DNA of 24,690 nucleotides from a virus, in IMG/VR virus record IMGVR_UViG_3300017739_000103, positions 1-24,690 of that record. One strand, 5' to 3'. Of the stretch, positions 3,474-19,055 are shown piece after piece (positions within the stretch are counted from its first letter, which is position 1; the number at the start of each line of letters is the position of its first letter). The notes beneath the pieces are model-generated. The model saw only the letters and a list, made by a program, of their open reading frames with translations, was not told where the DNA came from and did not search any database. Made by a program: the position numbers and the translations under genes.

Positions 3474-3663
3474 CAAAAAAGTCTTGGTGTACTTGCGAGA
3501 GAACACTGGCAACGGAGAGTATCCGGCGGAACTTTGTATCAAGGTTACGCAAAGCGACCCAGGCACGTTTGTTCAGTTGCCTGTTAACAGAAAACAACTG
3601 CTCAACATGCTTGATGTAGGAATAGGAATTTTGAGAAGGACAGAAGATGAAACGTCATGTTGA
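3454..3663 (+). CDS. Small unknown protein (69 aa)
   Basis: The preferred start is ATG 3454 (MTPKFTDKKVLVYLRE). It overlaps the previous stop by 20 nt; the open frame upstream of it duplicates sequence already used by the 122-aa gene. The ribosome site is weak. The protein is a short mixed alpha/beta sequence with VQLPVNRKQLLNMLDVGIGIL near the C-terminus. It overlaps the methyltransferase start by 17 nt. No family is recognised. Confidence 0.5.
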   Translation: MTPKFTDKKVLVYLRENTGNGEYPAELCIKVTQSDPGTFVQLPVNRKQLLNMLDVGIGILRRTEDETSC

Positions 3664-4690
3664 TCTGTGTTCAGGAATCGGGGGCTTTGCCCTGGGATTC
3701 GAATGGGCTCAATTATCAAGCCCGATATTATTTTGCGACACTGATGATTGGTGTCGCCGTGTGCTGAGAAAGCATTGGTCAGATGTCCCCATAGCGGAGG
3801 ACGTAAAGGAGTTAGCGAATGACCCAACAAGACTTGTTCCCGACTGTGACATCCTCACAGCAGGATACCCCTGCCAGCCATTTAGTGTTGCCGGGAAGCA
3901 AAGAGGCGCAGAAGATGACCGTCACATCTGGCCTGAAATACGAACCATTGTTGAAGCAAAGCGACCAACTTGGTGCGTTTTCGAAAACGTTTATGGTCAC
4001 ATCAAGCTGGGACTCGACGAGGTGCTATCTGATTTGGAAGCCATTGGCTACGCCACAAGGCCGTTTGTTGTTCCAGCTTGCGCCGTCAATGCTCCCCACA
4101 AACGAAACCGAGTCTGGATTATTGCACACGCCGACAGCGAAGGGGAATCAGGACGCGCCATCGATGAGGGGCAGAGATCCGGGAAGCTGGTGGGCAACGC
4201 CCAACACAATGGATCACCTACCACAAAGATCAACGGAAGCTCTGATCAAGCAAGCGACGACAGCGCGCAAAGGAAGGAAGCGACCCGCAAACCTACGAGA
4301 ACAGGTGGACGAGGAGACAGTAGCGATGTGGCCTACACCGACAGCGATGACGGGCGGCACCGGAGTGGCACCAAGTCACAAGAACGGCAAGCACGGGTGG
4401 AACACGGGCGCGGCGGTGAACGACAGCTTGTCGGAAGACCCAGTGAGAATGTGGCCTACACCAACGGCACGGGATCACAAGGACAGTGGGGACAACACCG
4501 ACTACCAGAAGATCAAAGAGAAGAGCAAGCTAGCTGGATACGCTGGTGGCAGTTTGAACCCCCAGTGGGTCGAGTGGCTGATGGGATACCCCGCCGGGTG
4601 GACAGAATTAGAGGATTAGGAAACGCGATTGTGCCAGCCATAGCACAGCAAATCGGCATCGCCATAAAGGAGAATTATGATGCAAACTGA
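3647..4690 (+). CDS. DNA (cytosine-5) methyltransferase
   Basis: It transfers a methyl group from S-adenosylmethionine to cytosine C5 in phage DNA, probably shielding it from host restriction. Motifs are in canonical order: motif I DLCSGIGGFALGF (6-18), motif IV GYPCQPFS (73-80) with catalytic Cys76, motif VI ENV (113-115), motif VIII HKRNRVW (151-157) and motif X GLGNAIVPA (about 323-331). Residues about 160-300 hold four degenerate repeats (HADSEGE, GNAQHNG, VAYTDSDDG, VAYTNGTG) in the target-recognition region. At 347 aa it is a normal length. The ribosome site is GAAGGA at 3635-3640. Codons 58-325 also encode a second protein in the +1 frame. It overlaps the following RHH gene by 14 nt. 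Confidence 0.92.
   Translation: MKRHVDLCSGIGGFALGFEWAQLSSPILFCDTDDWCRRVLRKHWSDVPIAEDVKELANDPTRLVPDCDILTAGYPCQPFSVAGKQRGAEDDRHIWPEIRTIVEAKRPTWCVFENVYGHIKLGLDEVLSDLEAIGYATRPFVVPACAVNAPHKRNRVWIIAHADSEGESGRAIDEGQRSGKLVGNAQHNGSPTTKINGSSDQASDDSAQRKEATRKPTRTGGRGDSSDVAYTDSDDGRHRSGTKSQERQARVEHGRGGERQLVGRPSENVAYTNGTGSQGQWGQHRLPEDQREEQASWIRWWQFEPPVGRVADGIPRRVDRIRGLGNAIVPAIAQQIGIAIKENYDAN
3805..3811 (+). promoter_or_regulatory. Internal Shine-Dalgarno for the +1-frame gene
   Basis: AAAGGAG lies inside the methyltransferase coding sequence, seven bases before ATG 3819 in the +1 frame. A near-perfect ribosome site at optimal spacing in front of a 266-codon alternative-frame open reading frame argues that the inner frame is translated independently. 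Confidence 0.75.
3819..4619 (+). CDS. Overprinted +1-frame protein of the WPTPTA / LNPxWVEWLMG family (266 aa)
   Basis: This frame lies wholly inside the methyltransferase gene, shifted by +1. It carries a consensus I know from phage and bacterial hypothetical proteins found beside cytosine methyltransferases: an N-terminal SKEAQKMTVTSG segment (27-38), DSTRCYLIWKPLATPQGRLL (65-84), repeated WPTPTA units (HTPTAKG 103-109, WATPNTMDH 125-133, WPTPTAMTG 171-179, WPTPTARDH 212-220) and a C-terminal SLNPQWVEWLMGYPAGW (245-261). The family match plus AAAGGAG at 3805-3811 make it a real gene rather than a shadow. The function is unknown. A role tied to methyltransferase recognition or regulation is inference from the fixed co-location. 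No membrane segment or known catalytic motif is seen. Confidence 0.8.
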   Translation: MTQQDLFPTVTSSQQDTPASHLVLPGSKEAQKMTVTSGLKYEPLLKQSDQLGAFSKTFMVTSSWDSTRCYLIWKPLATPQGRLLFQLAPSMLPTNETESGLLHTPTAKGNQDAPSMRGRDPGSWWATPNTMDHLPQRSTEALIKQATTARKGRKRPANLREQVDEETVAMWPTPTAMTGGTGVAPSHKNGKHGWNTGAAVNDSLSEDPVRMWPTPTARDHKDSGDNTDYQKIKEKSKLAGYAGGSLNPQWVEWLMGYPAGWTELED

Positions 4691-4895
4691 AAGTAAAATG
4701 GGGCGACCCAAGAAGTTCAATACTCGAAAAACAATGTCTTTCGATCTGGACGAAGCAATGTTCAACGAGTTAGTATCATGTGCAGAGGATAGAGGTCAGA
4801 CCAAAAGCGAGTTTGTTCGAACAGCTATCGCGCACCAGCTTTGGTCACCTCCAAAGGAAAAGACTGATGCAAGAACCGGAAAAACAAAAGGTTAA
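4680..4895 (+). CDS. Ribbon-helix-helix (CopG/Arc-type) DNA-binding protein
   Basis: The strand-helix-helix pattern TMSFDLDEAMFNELVSCAEDR then GQTKSEFVRTAIAHQL is characteristic of RHH repressors, in which an N-terminal beta strand (here KTMSFDL) reads the major groove as a dimer. A basic GRPKKFNTRK arm precedes it. Two adjacent ATG codons (4677 and 4680) follow AAAGGAG at 4666-4672. The second has better spacing and is used here, giving 71 aa. It overlaps the end of the methyltransferase gene. It is likely an autoregulator or early-gene repressor. The operator is unknown; the TGATACA iterons are a candidate by inference only. Confidence 0.8.
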   Translation: MQTESKMGRPKKFNTRKTMSFDLDEAMFNELVSCAEDRGQTKSEFVRTAIAHQLWSPPKEKTDARTGKTKG

Positions 4896-5034: not shown

Positions 5035-5163
5035 TTGTGTCGCTTCGCGGATAAGAAAGCTTATCTGCCGAGCGATACTTCTCTCATTCTTTTCAGCGAG
5101 TTCTTTCGCTATTTCATATGCCTCTATCGGCAGTGCTATTGATTTAAATTTCTGAGTATCCAT
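5017..5163 (-). CDS. Short ribbon-helix-helix-like protein (48 aa)
   Basis: ATG 5163-5161 shares one base with the stop of the helicase gene (TAATG), so it is probably translated by coupling. The 48 residues read as strand (FKSIALPIEAYE), helix (IAKELAEKNER), helix (SIARQISFLIREAT). This is the minimal RHH fold and similar to CopG/Arc repressors or plasmid antitoxins. It is too short to carry another domain. It is the second RHH protein within 500 bp, on the opposite strand and converging with the first. It probably regulates the helicase operon, by inference. Confidence 0.65.
   Translation of the reverse strand: MDTQKFKSIALPIEAYEIAKELAEKNERSIARQISFLIREATQSSNSK
5047..5068. terminator. Possible terminator hairpin at convergent junction
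   Basis: GATAAG (5050-5055) and CTTATC (5060-5065) form a perfect stem around an AAAG loop, extended by G-T, C-G and G-C pairs to nine base pairs. It lies 13 nt past the end of the rightward operon and is followed by a pyrimidine-rich stretch (5077-5095) rather than a clean T-run. It is also inside the small RHH coding sequence. Terminator function is tentative. Confidence 0.3.
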
Positions 5164-6608
5164 TACTTTACCTTTAGCCATTGTCGCATCTCCTCTCCGA
5201 GTGCAGCCCCCGCCAACGCAATCTTACCTCGCAAAATACGAACGATGTGTTCGTCCACAGTTCCTTCTGCAAGCAAGTCGATATACGTCACGGGTTGTTC
5301 TTGACCGATCCTGTGGCACCGATCTTCTGATTGAGTACGAGATTCCAAGTTGAAATCATTTGAGTAGTAGATGACCGTGTTGGCTGACACCAATGTCAGA
5401 CCACGCCCTGCCGTTTGTGGGTTGCCCACAAAGAACCGAGTTGCATGATCTGGGTCACTAAAGTCACGAACCAAATCATCTCGCTCTGTTTCACTTGTAT
5501 CCCCGTAATATGAACCGACAGATTCGCGCCCGTATTTCTTTGCGAGTGCTTCTTCGATCCGTTGAATGTCTTTCCGAAACCGAGCCCAGATAATTATCTT
5601 GCCGCTAGTTTCTTCGACAGCTTCCAGCAGGGCATCGAGTCTACGAGTTGGGATATCGACAAGCGTTCCCTCATCATCGACAGGCAGATACCCGCACAGA
5701 ATTTGTTGGAGGCGCAGTAGTTGTGTCATCGCTTCTTGCGCGAAGACTGTATCGTCCTCGAGGATGACAAGCGCGGCCTTCTTCATGGTCATGTAGTGCT
5801 GAAGTTGCTCTGGGTGCAGAGACACTTCGCGTATCGTGTATGTTTTCGATGGCAGATCAAGACAGTCTTTCTTGAGCACTCGGCTGGAAAACTTTCTCAA
5901 GAGCACGGCTAGTTCTTCCAAGTTCTTGAAGGATACAATCTTGTTGAATGAGTGCGCGCCCATATTGATACGGCGCATATTCGCGTACCGAGCTTGGAAC
6001 TGATAGTAGTTGTCGCAGCCGAGGAGCTCCGGGTCCAGGAAGGCGCACTGTGCGTACAAGTCCATAGGGCTTTGTGTTACCGGGGATCCGGTGAGGATGC
6101 GCCGGTAATCGCAATTCTCGGCTAGCTTGGTAATAATCTTTGTTCGTTTTGCTTTGTGGTTTTTGATCGTGGTGCTCTCGTCCACGGCGAACATTACCTT
6201 TTGTCCTTCCATAAACTTCTGCACATACTTCACGGTTTTTGTGCTGACAAAAGCCTCGACGTTGATAACCAAGATGCGAAGCCCATCGTGATAGTGCACC
6301 AGATCAGTGAGTTCTTTTTGCTGTGCCTTGTTCATCGAACTACGCCACGTTGCCATCTGTCTTGGGACATTATCTGGCATGTGTATGGGTATCTCTTTCA
6401 GCACCCAGTTCCGGTACACACCTTTCGGTGCTACGATTACAAGAGAAGTGATCCGCCCAGCGGCGTACAAATACGCGGCGTTGTCGATCAGAACTTTTGA
6501 CTTGCCACAACCCATTTCCATGAAGTATGCGTAGTTCTTCTCATCCGCACTTGCCTTGAATGCATCCTCTTGGTGTTTGTATGGTTGTGTCTTATATGTG
6601 TAATTCAT
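5163..6608 (-). CDS. SNF2-family DEAD-like helicase/ATPase
   Basis: An SF2 ATPase that translocates on or remodels duplex DNA. From ATG 6608 (481 aa): motif I MEMGCGKSK (30-38), Ia VIVAPKGVYRNW (57-68), II DEST (143-146), III LTGSP (172-176), V GRGLTLV and VI QSEDRCHRIGQ (426-436), the SNF2 signature. It is compact, with no accessory domain, as in phage SNF2-like helicases. An upstream in-frame TTG (6668) would add 20 residues, but ATG 6608 begins the conserved YKTQPYKHQ (Q-like) motif. The ribosome site is weak (TTGAG directly before the ATG). It is read opposite to both flanking operons and coupled to the downstream RHH gene. Confidence 0.9.
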   Translation of the reverse strand: MNYTYKTQPYKHQEDAFKASADEKNYAYFMEMGCGKSKVLIDNAAYLYAAGRITSLVIVAPKGVYRNWVLKEIPIHMPDNVPRQMATWRSSMNKAQQKELTDLVHYHDGLRILVINVEAFVSTKTVKYVQKFMEGQKVMFAVDESTTIKNHKAKRTKIITKLAENCDYRRILTGSPVTQSPMDLYAQCAFLDPELLGCDNYYQFQARYANMRRINMGAHSFNKIVSFKNLEELAVLLRKFSSRVLKKDCLDLPSKTYTIREVSLHPEQLQHYMTMKKAALVILEDDTVFAQEAMTQLLRLQQILCGYLPVDDEGTLVDIPTRRLDALLEAVEETSGKIIIWARFRKDIQRIEEALAKKYGRESVGSYYGDTSETERDDLVRDFSDPDHATRFFVGNPQTAGRGLTLVSANTVIYYSNDFNLESRTQSEDRCHRIGQEQPVTYIDLLAEGTVDEHIVRILRGKIALAGAALGEEMRQWLKVK

Positions 6609-6632
6609 CTCAATACATCTAAAAATATGTTG

Positions 6633-6668
6633 TTGACATGAAATAATATGTTTGATACAGATTGTCAA
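6633..6668. promoter_or_regulatory. Divergent overlapping promoter region
   Basis: TTGACA at 6633-6638 reads right and a second TTGACA reads left from 6668 to 6663, so two consensus -35 boxes bracket 24 bp in inverted orientation. Good -10 boxes are less clear: TATTAT at 14 nt for the leftward promoter, GATACA at 15 nt for the rightward one. A TGATACA element identical to the origin-region iterons lies between them at 6653-6659. The arrangement suggests mutually exclusive or co-repressed expression of the SNF2 island and the replication operon. Confidence 0.45.
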
Positions 6669-13882: not shown

Positions 13883-14275
13883 TCAATAAGACCAGATCGT
13901 GGGGCGGCGTTCATTGTCTAGGTCATCCAGATGGATAAACCTACGGTTGAAACTTCCTGCCTGTTGTATTCCGATACCGGTGAAGTCCCCAGATTCGAGA
14001 GCCAGGTGCAGGAGATCAAGCGCGTCTTCTCCATGTATCCTGATATCACAAGCGCGACCAGTTGCATGAGCTCCTGGACCGTTCGGCTTTCTTGCTTCGA
14101 TGGGGTGTTCGGGGCTTCTGTATCCGCTGCTGATTGTAAGACCTGTGCCGTATTCAGTGCGAAGTTTTTGCACCTTTGCGACAAAGTTCAAATCCATACC
14201 GTCCTCCCCGGTATGCTGACAACGAAACTCTTCTATTGAGAAATTTTGAAACTGCGACCAATCTTGTTCAGCCAC
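13883..14275 (-). CDS. M15-family peptidase, probable endolysin
   Basis: It probably cleaves peptidoglycan stem peptides at lysis. The peptidase M15 zinc site is present: SSGYRSPEH (49-57), GAHATGRACDIRI (68-80) with His70 and Asp77, and FIHLDD (113-118) with His115. At 130 aa it is a single catalytic domain with no signal peptide or wall-binding module, the usual size in phages of Gram-negative hosts. The start is GTG 14275, eight bases inside the end of the giant virion gene, with AAAGGA six nt upstream. No holin was recognised next to it. A virion-associated function is possible given the late-gene position. Confidence 0.85.
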   Translation of the reverse strand: MAEQDWSQFQNFSIEEFRCQHTGEDGMDLNFVAKVQKLRTEYGTGLTISSGYRSPEHPIEARKPNGPGAHATGRACDIRIHGEDALDLLHLALESGDFTGIGIQQAGSFNRRFIHLDDLDNERRPTIWSY

Positions 14276-17200
14276 GGCGAGTCCTTTCTGCTAGTTCCAT
14301 GTTCCGAGCTATTTCAACAGGGTTATCCCCTAAAAGTCCCGGTGATACAGGCTCTCCAGCTTGCACAGAAGGTACAGGAGCCGAGGCAATCGATGCTTCA
14401 GGCGACGAGAGAGACGATCCTGAAGGGGTGTTTTGTGATCTAAAGTCAAAAGTCTCTGGAGCCGGACTAGGTGCTACTGGCTGTCCTGATGGTCGAACGT
14501 TTGATCCTTCAGGTTTTACAAACAGAGTACTTGGAGCTCCTGATCCAAACACTCTCTGAAAAAGATCTGGTCCGAGCTCCTCTTCTGTAAAGAATGTTTC
14601 CAAAGGAGGGAAAGGTTCGGTTAGAGAAATACGTTCATCAAACTCATCTGATTTGTTGTTAAGAATTTCTACCATTCTTTCAAACTCTCCGGGAGTAAAC
14701 TGCTCCCGTTCAGCAAAAGGAGTTTGAGCCAACCCACGATAAAAAGCTGCCTTGCCTGGATTGTTCTCCACCTCATCGTATAAATCGTTTACCAGTTTAT
14801 CGCCTATCTTTTTAAAGGTAAATTTGCCTCTCAAAGATGCATCCGACACCAGTTTTGGAACACCGTTCTCAGTTAACACTACGTCTACATCATCCATATT
14901 AACGTTTGTGAGAATTGCATTGTTCGCGGTAATCATTAAGTTTTGTTGTGTTCTGAAGCCTTCTTGTTGGCTGTCGTACCACTGTGAGATTGCTTTATAA
15001 GGAGTTACATCGTCCGTTCTTAGTTCTGCGTTGAGCTCTCCTCCCGGTCCAGCAGTGTTTGCTCGTGCAAATTCTCGTGCTGTGTATTCAAGTTTCTTCT
15101 TGTTATCAATTTTAATGCCGCGCAAACCGGTGCTCATGGCAGTGGCTTCGGCAGCTAGATTAACGAATTGACCAGACTTGGAAAGCTCTCCTTCTATTGC
15201 TTTTAGAAGGCGACCTTTTTTAACTCCCTCTGGGTCAGAAGGATCAAGCTCATAGAAGTAGTCTGTAGCAACTGGTGTAACAGCACCCAACAAATGAAGA
15301 AAACTTTTGTTTACGATTTCTCCAAAGTTGTCTGCTTCCATCTCACCAGGTTGGTAACGATAAATTATAGCTCCTGTTTTTGTTCTGCCGGCTCGACCAG
15401 TAACATCCATAGCTCTTTCAAAAAGCAAAGACTCGTCTGTGAAGGGGCGTAGCAATGTTTGCAAGCCTACTAGCGTAGAATTAAGTACGCTTTCCTCGTT
15501 TATCTTTTTTCCTCGAGCGTAGTCTTGCAACGCTGCGTTTGCAGCACTTCCGATAACATCATTTGGAATAAAATATCCAACAGGCAACGCTTCAAACTGC
15601 CCGTCTACGGGCTTGGTCAGATAAATAAATCGTTGTCCTTCGTAAAAACCTGTTGCGGCACTATTGTCCATGCCCTCTTTTTCGTCGTCCGTTAGTCCTA
15701 GCGCGGCAGCGGAGATAGCGGAGGCTGTGGCGGTAGTACCAAAAGTTGTAAAACCCAAACCAGCCATTCTCTTTGTGCCGATTGCATTCATTTGACGAGC
15801 AAGACCATTAGCGGCTTTCTCTCCCAACTCTTGTACAAGCTGTGGGTTTGCAATAGCTTGTTGCTCAAGACCCTTCAAACGAATGATTTGATTGCCCATA
15901 ATATCAATCATTTCAGGAGTGGCTCTGAAGTTCATTTCTTTTGCAGCTTGCGCGAAAGTGTTCCCAGCATTACGAATTGTTTCAGACATAAAGCCGACAA
16001 ACGTACCAAGCACAGGAGCTCTGATGATTTTTCTACCAACTTCAGATATTTTAAAATAAGACGGTTGTGTGTTTGTAACTAAGTCGCCTGTCCAAACATC
16101 AAAGAAGTCATCACCAAAACCGTTTGTTTTTCTTTTGGCTACTCCTTGTTTGATGAACTCATCCGCAAGGTCGTCCCAGAGCTTATATGAAGCAGCACTG
16201 GTTGCGTTGCCTGTTCCTTGGGGCAAGGCATCAAGAAGACTAGCTCTCAGAGCGGCATCATATCTTGCTCTTTCTCCAACCCAAGCGGCTAGCTTATAAA
16301 AAGTATCTGCAAACTGTTGTGCTTTCTGAGGGAGTGTGTAGGGAGATTTTGCAACAGCTTTGGCACCTTTAGCTACTTTATCCGTAACCTCTGTGGGAAT
16401 AATTTTGTCTAGGTTTTCACGCAAGTTCCTAGCAAAAATTTGTAACGAGCTCGTGTTTGGGTTTCTTTCTGCTTGTGCGACCGACCCGGCCATTGTCTCT
16501 GCAATCTCATTGGCTCGAACAGACTCATCAACAATACGCAACCGCCGTGCTTTCTCAAACAAATCTGTTGCCGCTTCTGTTGGGACATTGCCTAGCTTGC
16601 CTATCGTTAAATTAAAAGCATCCATCAAGTCACCGCCTCGTGGCAGAAGACCCTGTGCTGTTAAATAGAAGCTGCCCCCGAGCAAGTTTCTCATGAGAGC
16701 GACAGGATTGTAAGTAACAACCGCTTGTTGCGTTAAAGATTTTAACCTAACCGCTCCTCCGAATATCATACCGAGTGCAGTGGTGTCGTATCCTTTTATC
16801 TGTAAGGCATCAACTAATTCTGTTCGAACAAGATTGCCGCTAAGAGCACCGAACGTTCCGCCAAAAACCGTATCTGTTTTTTCGCCAAGAGTAACAAGAT
16901 CTTTCTTAACTTTTTGATACCTCGCTAGCGCGTCTCCAGTAAGTTCTCCAGCAGCCGCCCGAGCATCAAGCAGAGCCATTTCTGCGGGATCCATGATTAG
17001 AGGATTTAGTTTTGATCCGCTTATTACTTCTTCCGCAGTTGCTGTGATCTCCTTATTGTTGAGCAGATCAGTGTACAATTTGTTTGTTTCTGCGATCCGA
17101 GCAAGGTTTGAGATAGTGTCCGTGTATCGTAGTACAGCCGCACCCTGTCCCTCTTTCATTTCTCCCATTAACTCGCGTAAAACAACAGTACCCGGATCGT

Positions 17201-19055
17201 CCAATATCTTTGATCTTGCCTTCAAGACATCTTGTGATACTTGAAACTTTGGCTCTTTTCTTGACAAGGAAAATTTGAAAAAATCTTTAAAACCTCCTGT
17301 CGCAGATTCTGGTACGACATTCGCAGCGTCTTCAATTGTTATCCCAGGTGTGTTTTCTACGCGTCGGCGAACCTGAGTCAGCACATAGTCTGCTGCTTCT
17401 CTGAGAAGAGGCTCATTGCCAGAGATGTCATATGTGCCATTTGCTCGTTGAGTTATGCCAAACTGAGTCCGATACGCTGGTATCTTCGCCATAGCTAACA
17501 TTACTTCATTGATGGCAGTCTTGATTTTCTTCGGCAGTGTACCTCTTGATTCAAGCTTTGCGAAGTTTCTTACAATATCTTCTAATTCAGCTTCGTTTCG
17601 CCCGATTGTCCGAGCAAACATTCTACGCAGATATCCGTTTTCGTTTTCTTTAAAGTTTCTTCTAAGCCGAAGAAACTCTTCTTCGGCTTTTTTCCCTGCT
17701 CCAAAGTCTCCAGCGTCAAAGCGTCTTTGCAAATCGTCCATGAAACCTTGTGAAAGCTTGTTTCTTTCACTAGCCATGCGCTCTGCAATCTTTTCTATGT
17801 TTGAAACTTTTTCTGGGTTCTTTCTGTACTTGATTAGAGCCTCTGTGTTTCCTTCGAGGTAGTTTATCAAGTCATCATATGTGGTTTGTATGGTTTCTTT
17901 GCCGCCTCTACCCATACGATTGAGTTCTTTGAGATATGTAACAGCCTCTTTGTGAAACGAGTTTAAGTTTTTCAACGCTAGTTTTTCGGTGGCTTTTATA
18001 TTTCCTGTCACATCATCAATACGAGACATAACTGCTGAAGCTAAACCGCGATCACTTGTGAGGTATTGATTAAACACTTTTCCGGTTTTATCAACTAGCT
18101 GACCAACTTTTGTGCTAGCAAATTTTTGTCCCAGAATGTCGTAGCCGTTTGACACAACATCTCCAAGACGTTCGCCTCCGGTAGCAGGAACAGGTAAATC
18201 TCTAACTATTTGACTTGTTCCACCAGCTACTTTGCCAGTGCCCGAAAGAAAAGCACCGGCAGCCGGTATCGCTACATCGCCTAGAAGAATGCCCACAGCC
18301 GCTGACTCTGTGCCTATTCTAAACTTGTTCCTAAATCGAGTGGCGGCTCTTTCTCTACCTACAAGCCCTGTGTCATCTTCGGTTCGTAGACCTTCAGGCA
18401 AAATATCGAAATGATCTGCTAGTGTTGATGTGCCACCGGGGGCAACAATTGCATCCGATAGTCCAGCGGCAACACTTGTTGCGGCACCTGTTTGAAAACG
18501 CCCAACAACTCTTCCTCCGGCTCGAACAGCCGCGCTTTGTGACCTAGCTCCGTATGTCGGAGCCAGAATAACCTGTCCTGCTTTTGTTTTGCCAAATGCC
18601 TGTGCGCCTCTAAACAGACTTGTAGCCGCAGGAATTATCTCCGTTCCTGCTCTTACTGCTTGCCCTGTTTTTCCGGCTGTTGATGCCCAGCCGATTACAG
18701 GTATGGATGCGGTCACAAAAGTGGAAAGTAGTTCTGCTACTTCACCAGCCTCAGTTTCTGGATCAAGCCCAGTTACATCTCTGATGTATTGAAAAAACTG
18801 ATCGTTGTACTCAAGAGTGTTGGTATCAAAAAAGTAATCAGAAGCCAAAAGAGGAAGTGAAATAATTCCTTCTGGAACACCAAGGATCCCAGATCCAATG
18901 CCCTTGCCAATATCTCCTACTTGAGAGAATGTAAAAAAGTCTTGTTCGTCTGGAGAGTCGGGAACAAATGCTTGAACAGGTGCAACAGCGGGTACGGTTG
19001 AAGTTACAGGTTTTACGCCACCAGATTTTCCACCACTAAAATCAAAAGTTGCCAT
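14268..19055 (-). CDS. Giant virion protein, putative internal/ejection protein (1595 aa)
   Basis: It is the largest gene in the window, 1595 aa. The N-terminal 130 residues are hydrophobic and Gly-rich (GIGSGILGVPEGIISLPLLA). Ala/Gly-rich stretches follow, then a long charged helical region (about 340-620) with many Lys/Glu/Arg. A middle region contains VVTYNPVALMRNLLGG and FVGFMSETIRNAGNTFAQAA. The last 110 residues are Pro/Ser-rich and probably disordered. Size, composition and place among tail and lysis genes fit podovirus internal virion proteins ejected with DNA, or phage polyvalent proteins. No lysozyme or transglycosylase motif was recognised. It starts three bases after the stop of the 400-aa gene. 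Confidence 0.65.
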   Translation of the reverse strand: MATFDFSGGKSGGVKPVTSTVPAVAPVQAFVPDSPDEQDFFTFSQVGDIGKGIGSGILGVPEGIISLPLLASDYFFDTNTLEYNDQFFQYIRDVTGLDPETEAGEVAELLSTFVTASIPVIGWASTAGKTGQAVRAGTEIIPAATSLFRGAQAFGKTKAGQVILAPTYGARSQSAAVRAGGRVVGRFQTGAATSVAAGLSDAIVAPGGTSTLADHFDILPEGLRTEDDTGLVGRERAATRFRNKFRIGTESAAVGILLGDVAIPAAGAFLSGTGKVAGGTSQIVRDLPVPATGGERLGDVVSNGYDILGQKFASTKVGQLVDKTGKVFNQYLTSDRGLASAVMSRIDDVTGNIKATEKLALKNLNSFHKEAVTYLKELNRMGRGGKETIQTTYDDLINYLEGNTEALIKYRKNPEKVSNIEKIAERMASERNKLSQGFMDDLQRRFDAGDFGAGKKAEEEFLRLRRNFKENENGYLRRMFARTIGRNEAELEDIVRNFAKLESRGTLPKKIKTAINEVMLAMAKIPAYRTQFGITQRANGTYDISGNEPLLREAADYVLTQVRRRVENTPGITIEDAANVVPESATGGFKDFFKFSLSRKEPKFQVSQDVLKARSKILDDPGTVVLRELMGEMKEGQGAAVLRYTDTISNLARIAETNKLYTDLLNNKEITATAEEVISGSKLNPLIMDPAEMALLDARAAAGELTGDALARYQKVKKDLVTLGEKTDTVFGGTFGALSGNLVRTELVDALQIKGYDTTALGMIFGGAVRLKSLTQQAVVTYNPVALMRNLLGGSFYLTAQGLLPRGGDLMDAFNLTIGKLGNVPTEAATDLFEKARRLRIVDESVRANEIAETMAGSVAQAERNPNTSSLQIFARNLRENLDKIIPTEVTDKVAKGAKAVAKSPYTLPQKAQQFADTFYKLAAWVGERARYDAALRASLLDALPQGTGNATSAASYKLWDDLADEFIKQGVAKRKTNGFGDDFFDVWTGDLVTNTQPSYFKISEVGRKIIRAPVLGTFVGFMSETIRNAGNTFAQAAKEMNFRATPEMIDIMGNQIIRLKGLEQQAIANPQLVQELGEKAANGLARQMNAIGTKRMAGLGFTTFGTTATASAISAAALGLTDDEKEGMDNSAATGFYEGQRFIYLTKPVDGQFEALPVGYFIPNDVIGSAANAALQDYARGKKINEESVLNSTLVGLQTLLRPFTDESLLFERAMDVTGRAGRTKTGAIIYRYQPGEMEADNFGEIVNKSFLHLLGAVTPVATDYFYELDPSDPEGVKKGRLLKAIEGELSKSGQFVNLAAEATAMSTGLRGIKIDNKKKLEYTAREFARANTAGPGGELNAELRTDDVTPYKAISQWYDSQQEGFRTQQNLMITANNAILTNVNMDDVDVVLTENGVPKLVSDASLRGKFTFKKIGDKLVNDLYDEVENNPGKAAFYRGLAQTPFAEREQFTPGEFERMVEILNNKSDEFDERISLTEPFPPLETFFTEEELGPDLFQRVFGSGAPSTLFVKPEGSNVRPSGQPVAPSPAPETFDFRSQNTPSGSSLSSPEASIASAPVPSVQAGEPVSPGLLGDNPVEIARNMELAERTRRG
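14677..14709 (-). repeat. 33-bp dispersed repeat, copy A
   Basis: This segment matches 31 of 33 positions with 19202-19234 in the same orientation. Here it encodes REQFTPGEFER in the giant virion protein. It contains a perfect inverted repeat, CGGGAG (14690-14695) and CTCCCG (14703-14708), around a 7-nt loop. Confidence 0.85.

Follow-up and report, generated by a model that had tools for sequence, protein, structure and literature searches.

Overlapping reading frames of a phage locus very probably encode the two subunits of one C5-cytosine methyltransferase

Two long reading frames lie on the same strand at a +1 offset in an IMG/VR virus contig that also carries phage replication and virion genes; here, the window denotes the whole stretch of 24,690 nucleotides that was analysed. 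Do both frames encode protein and, if so, what does a second protein do inside a methyltransferase gene? A sequence-only reading had proposed that ORF1 encodes a C5-cytosine methyltransferase with all motifs in order, that ORF2 encodes an independent protein of a conserved family, and that the shared region of about 800 bp is dual-coding throughout. The layout on which it was based was confirmed from the sequence, including the coordinates and lengths of both frames (Table 1), the AAAGGAG element seven bases 5' of the ORF2 ATG, and the family consensus quoted for ORF2. We refer to the two products as alpha (ORF1) and beta (ORF2).

Table 1. Features of the two-frame locus; positions are those of the window.
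Feature	Position	Strand	Basis
ORF1 / alpha: C5-cytosine methyltransferase catalytic subunit, 347 aa, motifs I-VIII + X	3647..4690	+	PF00145, Foldseek M.HhaI
Alpha catalytic domain, residues 1-165	3647..4141	+	AlphaFold2 pLDDT mostly >90
Alpha linker, predicted disordered, residues 166-310, in TRD place	4142..4576	+	pLDDT mostly 32-48, coil; frame nearly neutral
Alpha motif X + C-terminal helices, residues 317-346	4595..4684	+	two helices, block pLDDT 75-95
Motif X GLGNAIVP in alpha	4613-4636	+	sequence
Shine-Dalgarno (SD) AAAGGAG of ORF2	3805..3811	+	sequence; SD-start counts across loci
ORF2 / beta: probable recognition + motif-IX subunit, 266 aa, +1 frame	3819..4619	+	phase conservation, shuffles, substitution classes
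Beta N-terminal part, overlaps alpha as far as motif VIII; constraint in both frames	3819..4121	+	substitution classes; helix 50-61, hairpin 69-91 in model
Beta cassette 1, type I, LHTPTA	4122..4190	+	cassette clustering, sequence
Beta cassette 2, type A, WATPNTMDH	4191..4328	+	cassette clustering, sequence
Beta cassette 3, type J, WPTPTAMTGG	4329..4451	+	cassette clustering, sequence
Beta cassette 4, type E, WPTPTARDH	4452..4553	+	cassette clustering, sequence
Beta motif IX LNPQWVEWLMGYPAGWTELED	4554..4616	+	hhalign vs in-frame motif IX of single-chain relatives, E=1.1e-7

The +1 frame over ORF1 is open for 267 codons. This length was never reached in 5,000 codon permutations of ORF1 (longest +1 run 225, mean 79; P <= 2e-4) or in 5,000 synonymous shuffles (longest 250, mean 117; P <= 2e-4). 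Across 113 distinct loci, the synonymous shuffle gave P <= 0.05 in 112 and P <= 0.005 in 87 (200 shuffles per locus). Within its first 60 codons, the beta frame has an SD-preceded ATG or GTG in 84 of 114 distinct loci, whereas the other two frames of the same stretch have one in 18 of 228. The codon-shuffle, start-site and dual-frame substitution tests (see below) agree that both frames are coding. Of the proposal that both proteins are made, it therefore stands that two frames are under selection and that beta has its own SD and start; the beta product itself we infer from the sequence.

For the substitution test, we used a simple counting scheme of our own, neither OLGenie nor FRESCo. Isolated single-base differences between close, disjoint pairs of loci (49 pairs, then 29 with motif VIII located and bootstrap) were scored per opportunity as silent (S) or changing (N), with the alpha letter first. 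Alpha-silent changes are free in the alpha-only stretch and alpha-changing ones are not (SN 0.089, NS 0.006). Over the N-terminal part of beta both frames are constrained (SN 0.037, NS 0.016, NN 0.003), with a beta-frame NN/NS of 0.18, and alpha-silent changes are rarer there by a factor of 2.4 than in the alpha-only stretch. The stretch at the place of the target recognition domain (TRD) has the reverse of the alpha-only pattern (SN 0.009, NS 0.068, NN 0.007): the alpha frame is close to neutral (NN/SN 0.79, 95% CI 0.55-1.22) and the beta frame is strongly constrained (NN/NS 0.10, 0.075-0.136). Constraint in both frames returns over motif IX. NS exceeded SN in all 26 informative pairs for the TRD stretch and in none of 28 for the alpha-only stretch; between the window and its nearest relative, there are 26 NS and 1 SN changes in the former, and 0 NS and 23 SN in the latter. 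Along the gene, constraint passes from the alpha frame to the beta frame. The +1 frame is under constraint, as the sequence-only reading had supposed, but its picture of uniform dual coding over 800 bp was too broad: strong two-frame constraint covers only the 5'-most ~300 bp and ~65 bp over motif IX, and the middle ~430 bp is constrained in the ORF2 frame with the methyltransferase frame near neutral. Actinophage "monomers", tried as a negative control for this test, gave a mixed result (TRD SN 0.049, NS 0.072) and were rejected as not clean.

ORF1 matches PF00145 (E=5.8e-38), and its catalytic domain has motifs I-VIII (PCQ, ENV, QxRxR-type); motif X is also present. The set is not complete, however, since motif IX is absent from ORF1 and the corresponding LNPQWVEWLMGYPAGWT sits in ORF2. 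Foldseek aligned alpha with M.HhaI (E=3.5e-14, rmsd 1.8) over 166 columns only. In the AlphaFold2 model, the catalytic domain and the C-terminal helices are confident and residues 166-310 are disordered; the alpha segment at the TRD place is 11% hydrophobic in the window, compared with 38% for the catalytic domain. An alpha-beta fusion chain scored no better against PF00145 than alpha did (122.3 vs 131.5 bits). Pfam itself does not show motif IX, because the PF00145 match on L252, a bacterial locus with motif IX in frame with the enzyme, ends at residue 166.

In alignments with single-chain relatives, the C-terminus of beta falls on their in-frame motif-IX region, immediately ahead of motif X (beta family against single-frame relatives, hhalign E=1.1e-7). 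Beta also contains cassettes headed W/L-x-TP, one to seven per array and with a median of 40 residues. The 114 distinct arrays gave 139 cassette clusters (55% cut), 16 of them with at least five members. Cassette order is I-A-J-E in the window, J-E in L008, and Q-J-A-K in L009. The movement of cassettes is independent of alpha. Among pairs of loci whose alphas are <65% identical, 68 have a common cassette at >=80% identity, of which a few depend on the truncated alpha of L092, and 361 of the 519 pairs with alpha >=75% identical have no common cassette at >=60%. A 35-bp direct repeat (74%) lies at cassette headers (window 4311-4345 and 4434-4468, 123 bp apart), where cassettes might be exchanged in frame. 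The longest beta that we found (L053, 2498-3988) has 497 codons and six counted cassettes.

In three distant relatives, actinobacterial or actinophage-like (L250 from Tsukamurella sputi, L276 and L283), the catalytic domain, TP cassettes, motif IX, and motif X follow in the same order as here but within one ORF, and therefore the cassettes are at the TRD position. The beta profile matches L276 in the enzyme frame (E=1.4e-4). Some kin of these three loci, L270 for one, have mixed frames. Fused and split forms of the enzyme both exist. A TRD fold was not recognised in beta, hence the assignment of the TRD to beta rests on position, on the single-frame relatives, and on selection. The beta-alone model was poor (pLDDT 62, pTM 0.37), a Foldseek search of it against the PDB returned nothing at E<=0.001, and the beta profile matched no solved chain among PDB sequences. 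Similarity of the +1 ORF of L252 (E=7e-11) was not accepted as beta homology, as it may merely reflect alpha conservation. Homology of the beta N-terminal part might be a shadow of the same kind, and was therefore left out as proof in favour of selection.

Collectively, our results make it very likely that the overlapping frames encode a two-subunit C5-cytosine methyltransferase, with a catalytic alpha (motifs I-VIII and X) and a recognition beta (cassettes and motif IX). Rather than an independent protein, ORF2 looks like the portion of the same enzyme that holds the TRD and motif IX. Motif IX normally packs the recognition domain against the catalytic domain. In the mechanism that we propose, alpha would fold as the catalytic domain (I-VIII), with motif X tethered by a disordered linker of ~145 residues, and translation of beta would start from its own ribosome-binding site within the alpha gene. 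Beta would then provide what alpha lacks, a WPTP-cassette recognition region and motif IX, and the two would assemble into one active enzyme, which most likely protects phage DNA from host restriction by methylating it; a restriction partner was not seen in the window. DNA would be recognised by the cassettes, and one enzyme might have several specificities. We more tentatively suggest, at slightly less than even likelihood, that beta is a multispecific array, in which each ~40-residue WPTP cassette sets or adds a DNA target and is exchanged between phages as a unit, and that the array lies wholly in the second frame of the gene for its own catalytic subunit, with the alpha frame there kept open solely as a flexible linker.

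Similar divisions of a methyltransferase have precedents. The smaller polypeptide of M.EcoHK31I comes from a different frame within the gene for the larger one. As described in PMC3404938, both polypeptides are needed, the larger has motifs I-VIII and X, and the smaller has motif IX alone. Alpha and beta share this division, and it is by motif division that we liken the two systems. For M.EcoHK31I (YGGCCR) the predicted TRD is on the larger polypeptide, whereas beta cassettes seem to fill the TRD place here. Our locus appears to work like M.EcoHK31I, except that its TRD seems to have gone over to beta as well, in the form of shuffled cassettes. M.AquI (CYCGRG) also has two subunits and is a C5 methyltransferase naturally split in the variable region (PMC3404938). 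The locus resembles it in having a natural two-subunit split within that region; however, motif X joins motif IX on the smaller subunit of M.AquI, while here alpha keeps motif X and the frames overlap by ~800 bp. In the C5 methyltransferases of the Bacillus phages SPR and phi3T, several recognition modules follow one another and are shuffled between phages. Beta has exchangeable cassettes in tandem, which may be recognition modules of a comparable kind; those of SPR and phi3T, however, lie in a single chain and a single frame, and the likeness drawn here is one of arrangement.

It is unlikely that beta gives motif IX only (perhaps also solubility) and that the real TRD is the alpha segment 3' of motif VIII. 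Such a placement would agree with the TRD predicted in the larger subunit of M.EcoHK31I (PMC3404938) and with the clear TL motifs reported in YGGCCR-recognising enzymes (PMC2413257). Nevertheless, the alpha frame is near neutral in that stretch and the beta frame strongly constrained, the alpha segment is predicted to be disordered and is poor in hydrophobic residues, and TP cassettes occupy that place in the single-frame relatives. We regard as very improbable a programmed +1 frameshift past motif VIII that would produce one alpha-beta fusion chain, with beta having no start of its own. The single-chain relatives are indeed collinear with the frames, and the enzyme exists both fused and split; however, the N-terminal part of beta, which a fusion does not use, is under beta-frame selection, beta has an SD-start in 84/114 loci, and motif X is back in the alpha frame. 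That beta is a methylation-unrelated protein overprinted by happenstance is barely credible, for although no Pfam, NCBIfam or PADLOC family matches or names ORF2, beta carries the motif IX that is missing from alpha, its cassettes are in frame within single-chain methyltransferases, and it never occurred without alpha among the loci checked.

With ORF2 as the query, tblastn matched 78 phage records, of which 54 are Paenibacillus, mostly beneath methyltransferase-named features; the homologue in phage Redbud is annotated "g50 internal gene", and the PHROG match of ORF2, phrog_1008, is labelled DNA methyltransferase. Scanning IMG/VR with the beta profile returned at least 590 confirmed matches. 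Beta overlaps alpha in the +1 phase in 94 of the 94 records first examined, which include a few duplicates, and was never found without alpha among them. Loci were also fetched by the N-terminal half of alpha alone, beta not being required. A +1 beta was present in 79/79 viral loci (partly the same contigs as the first 94) and in 78/80 bacterial loci (157/159 overall). The bacterial exceptions are L252, with its in-frame motif IX, and L231, a broken-up locus; L250 is counted within the 78 yet has a weak +1 match only and is a single-frame enzyme. In a best-match beta-profile search, all 255 listed loci had an overlapping +1 match, those of L250 and L252 being weak and not true beta genes. The sequence-only reading had proposed counting homologues that overlap a methyltransferase in the same +1 phase, and essentially every related locus has this overlap; nor is the +1 frame often interrupted by stops in homologous loci. 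The arrangement spans viruses and bacteria of several phyla. Literature searches limited to open-licence papers found no published description of the beta family.

In bacteria of several phyla and in at least several hundred phage contigs (>= 590 matches), what is annotated as a methyltransferase plus a hypothetical protein would be a single enzyme divided between two frames. Most annotations give one half only, and databases built on alpha alone would miss the recognition subunit and take the wrong frame for the recognition domain. The locus is also a natural example of constraint changing frame along a gene, useful for testing overlapping-gene evolution. If the cassettes are recognition units, the assignment of cassettes to targets is testable by methylome sequencing.

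Elsewhere in the window, a small ribbon-helix-helix-like protein (4677-4895, plus strand) shares its first 14 bases with the end of the alpha gene. An SNF2-family helicase (5163-6668, minus strand) is convergent with the methyltransferase genes; the PADLOC ZorD and DpdE profiles match its helicase part only. A 1595-aa ORF (14268-19055, minus strand) has no PHROG match at E<=0.001.

Several loci have other layouts. Three actinophage contigs (L270, L268 and L271) have a ~300-codon +1 ORF beside an alpha with motifs IX and X in its own frame, an apparent intermediate; in some actinophage loci, such as L270, the cassettes seem to be in the +1 frame and motif IX in frame 0. In L096 (Bacteroides finegoldii plasmid NZ_OY725938.1, 2832-3951), which adjoins a HamA (Hachiman) annotation, beta is open throughout, the alpha frame is broken by stops between motifs VIII and X, and motif I is also absent. 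Lastly, alpha ends early in L224, from an Oscillospiraceae MAG, and it is the +1 ORF that contains the motif X sequence, as though an indel had swapped the two frames.
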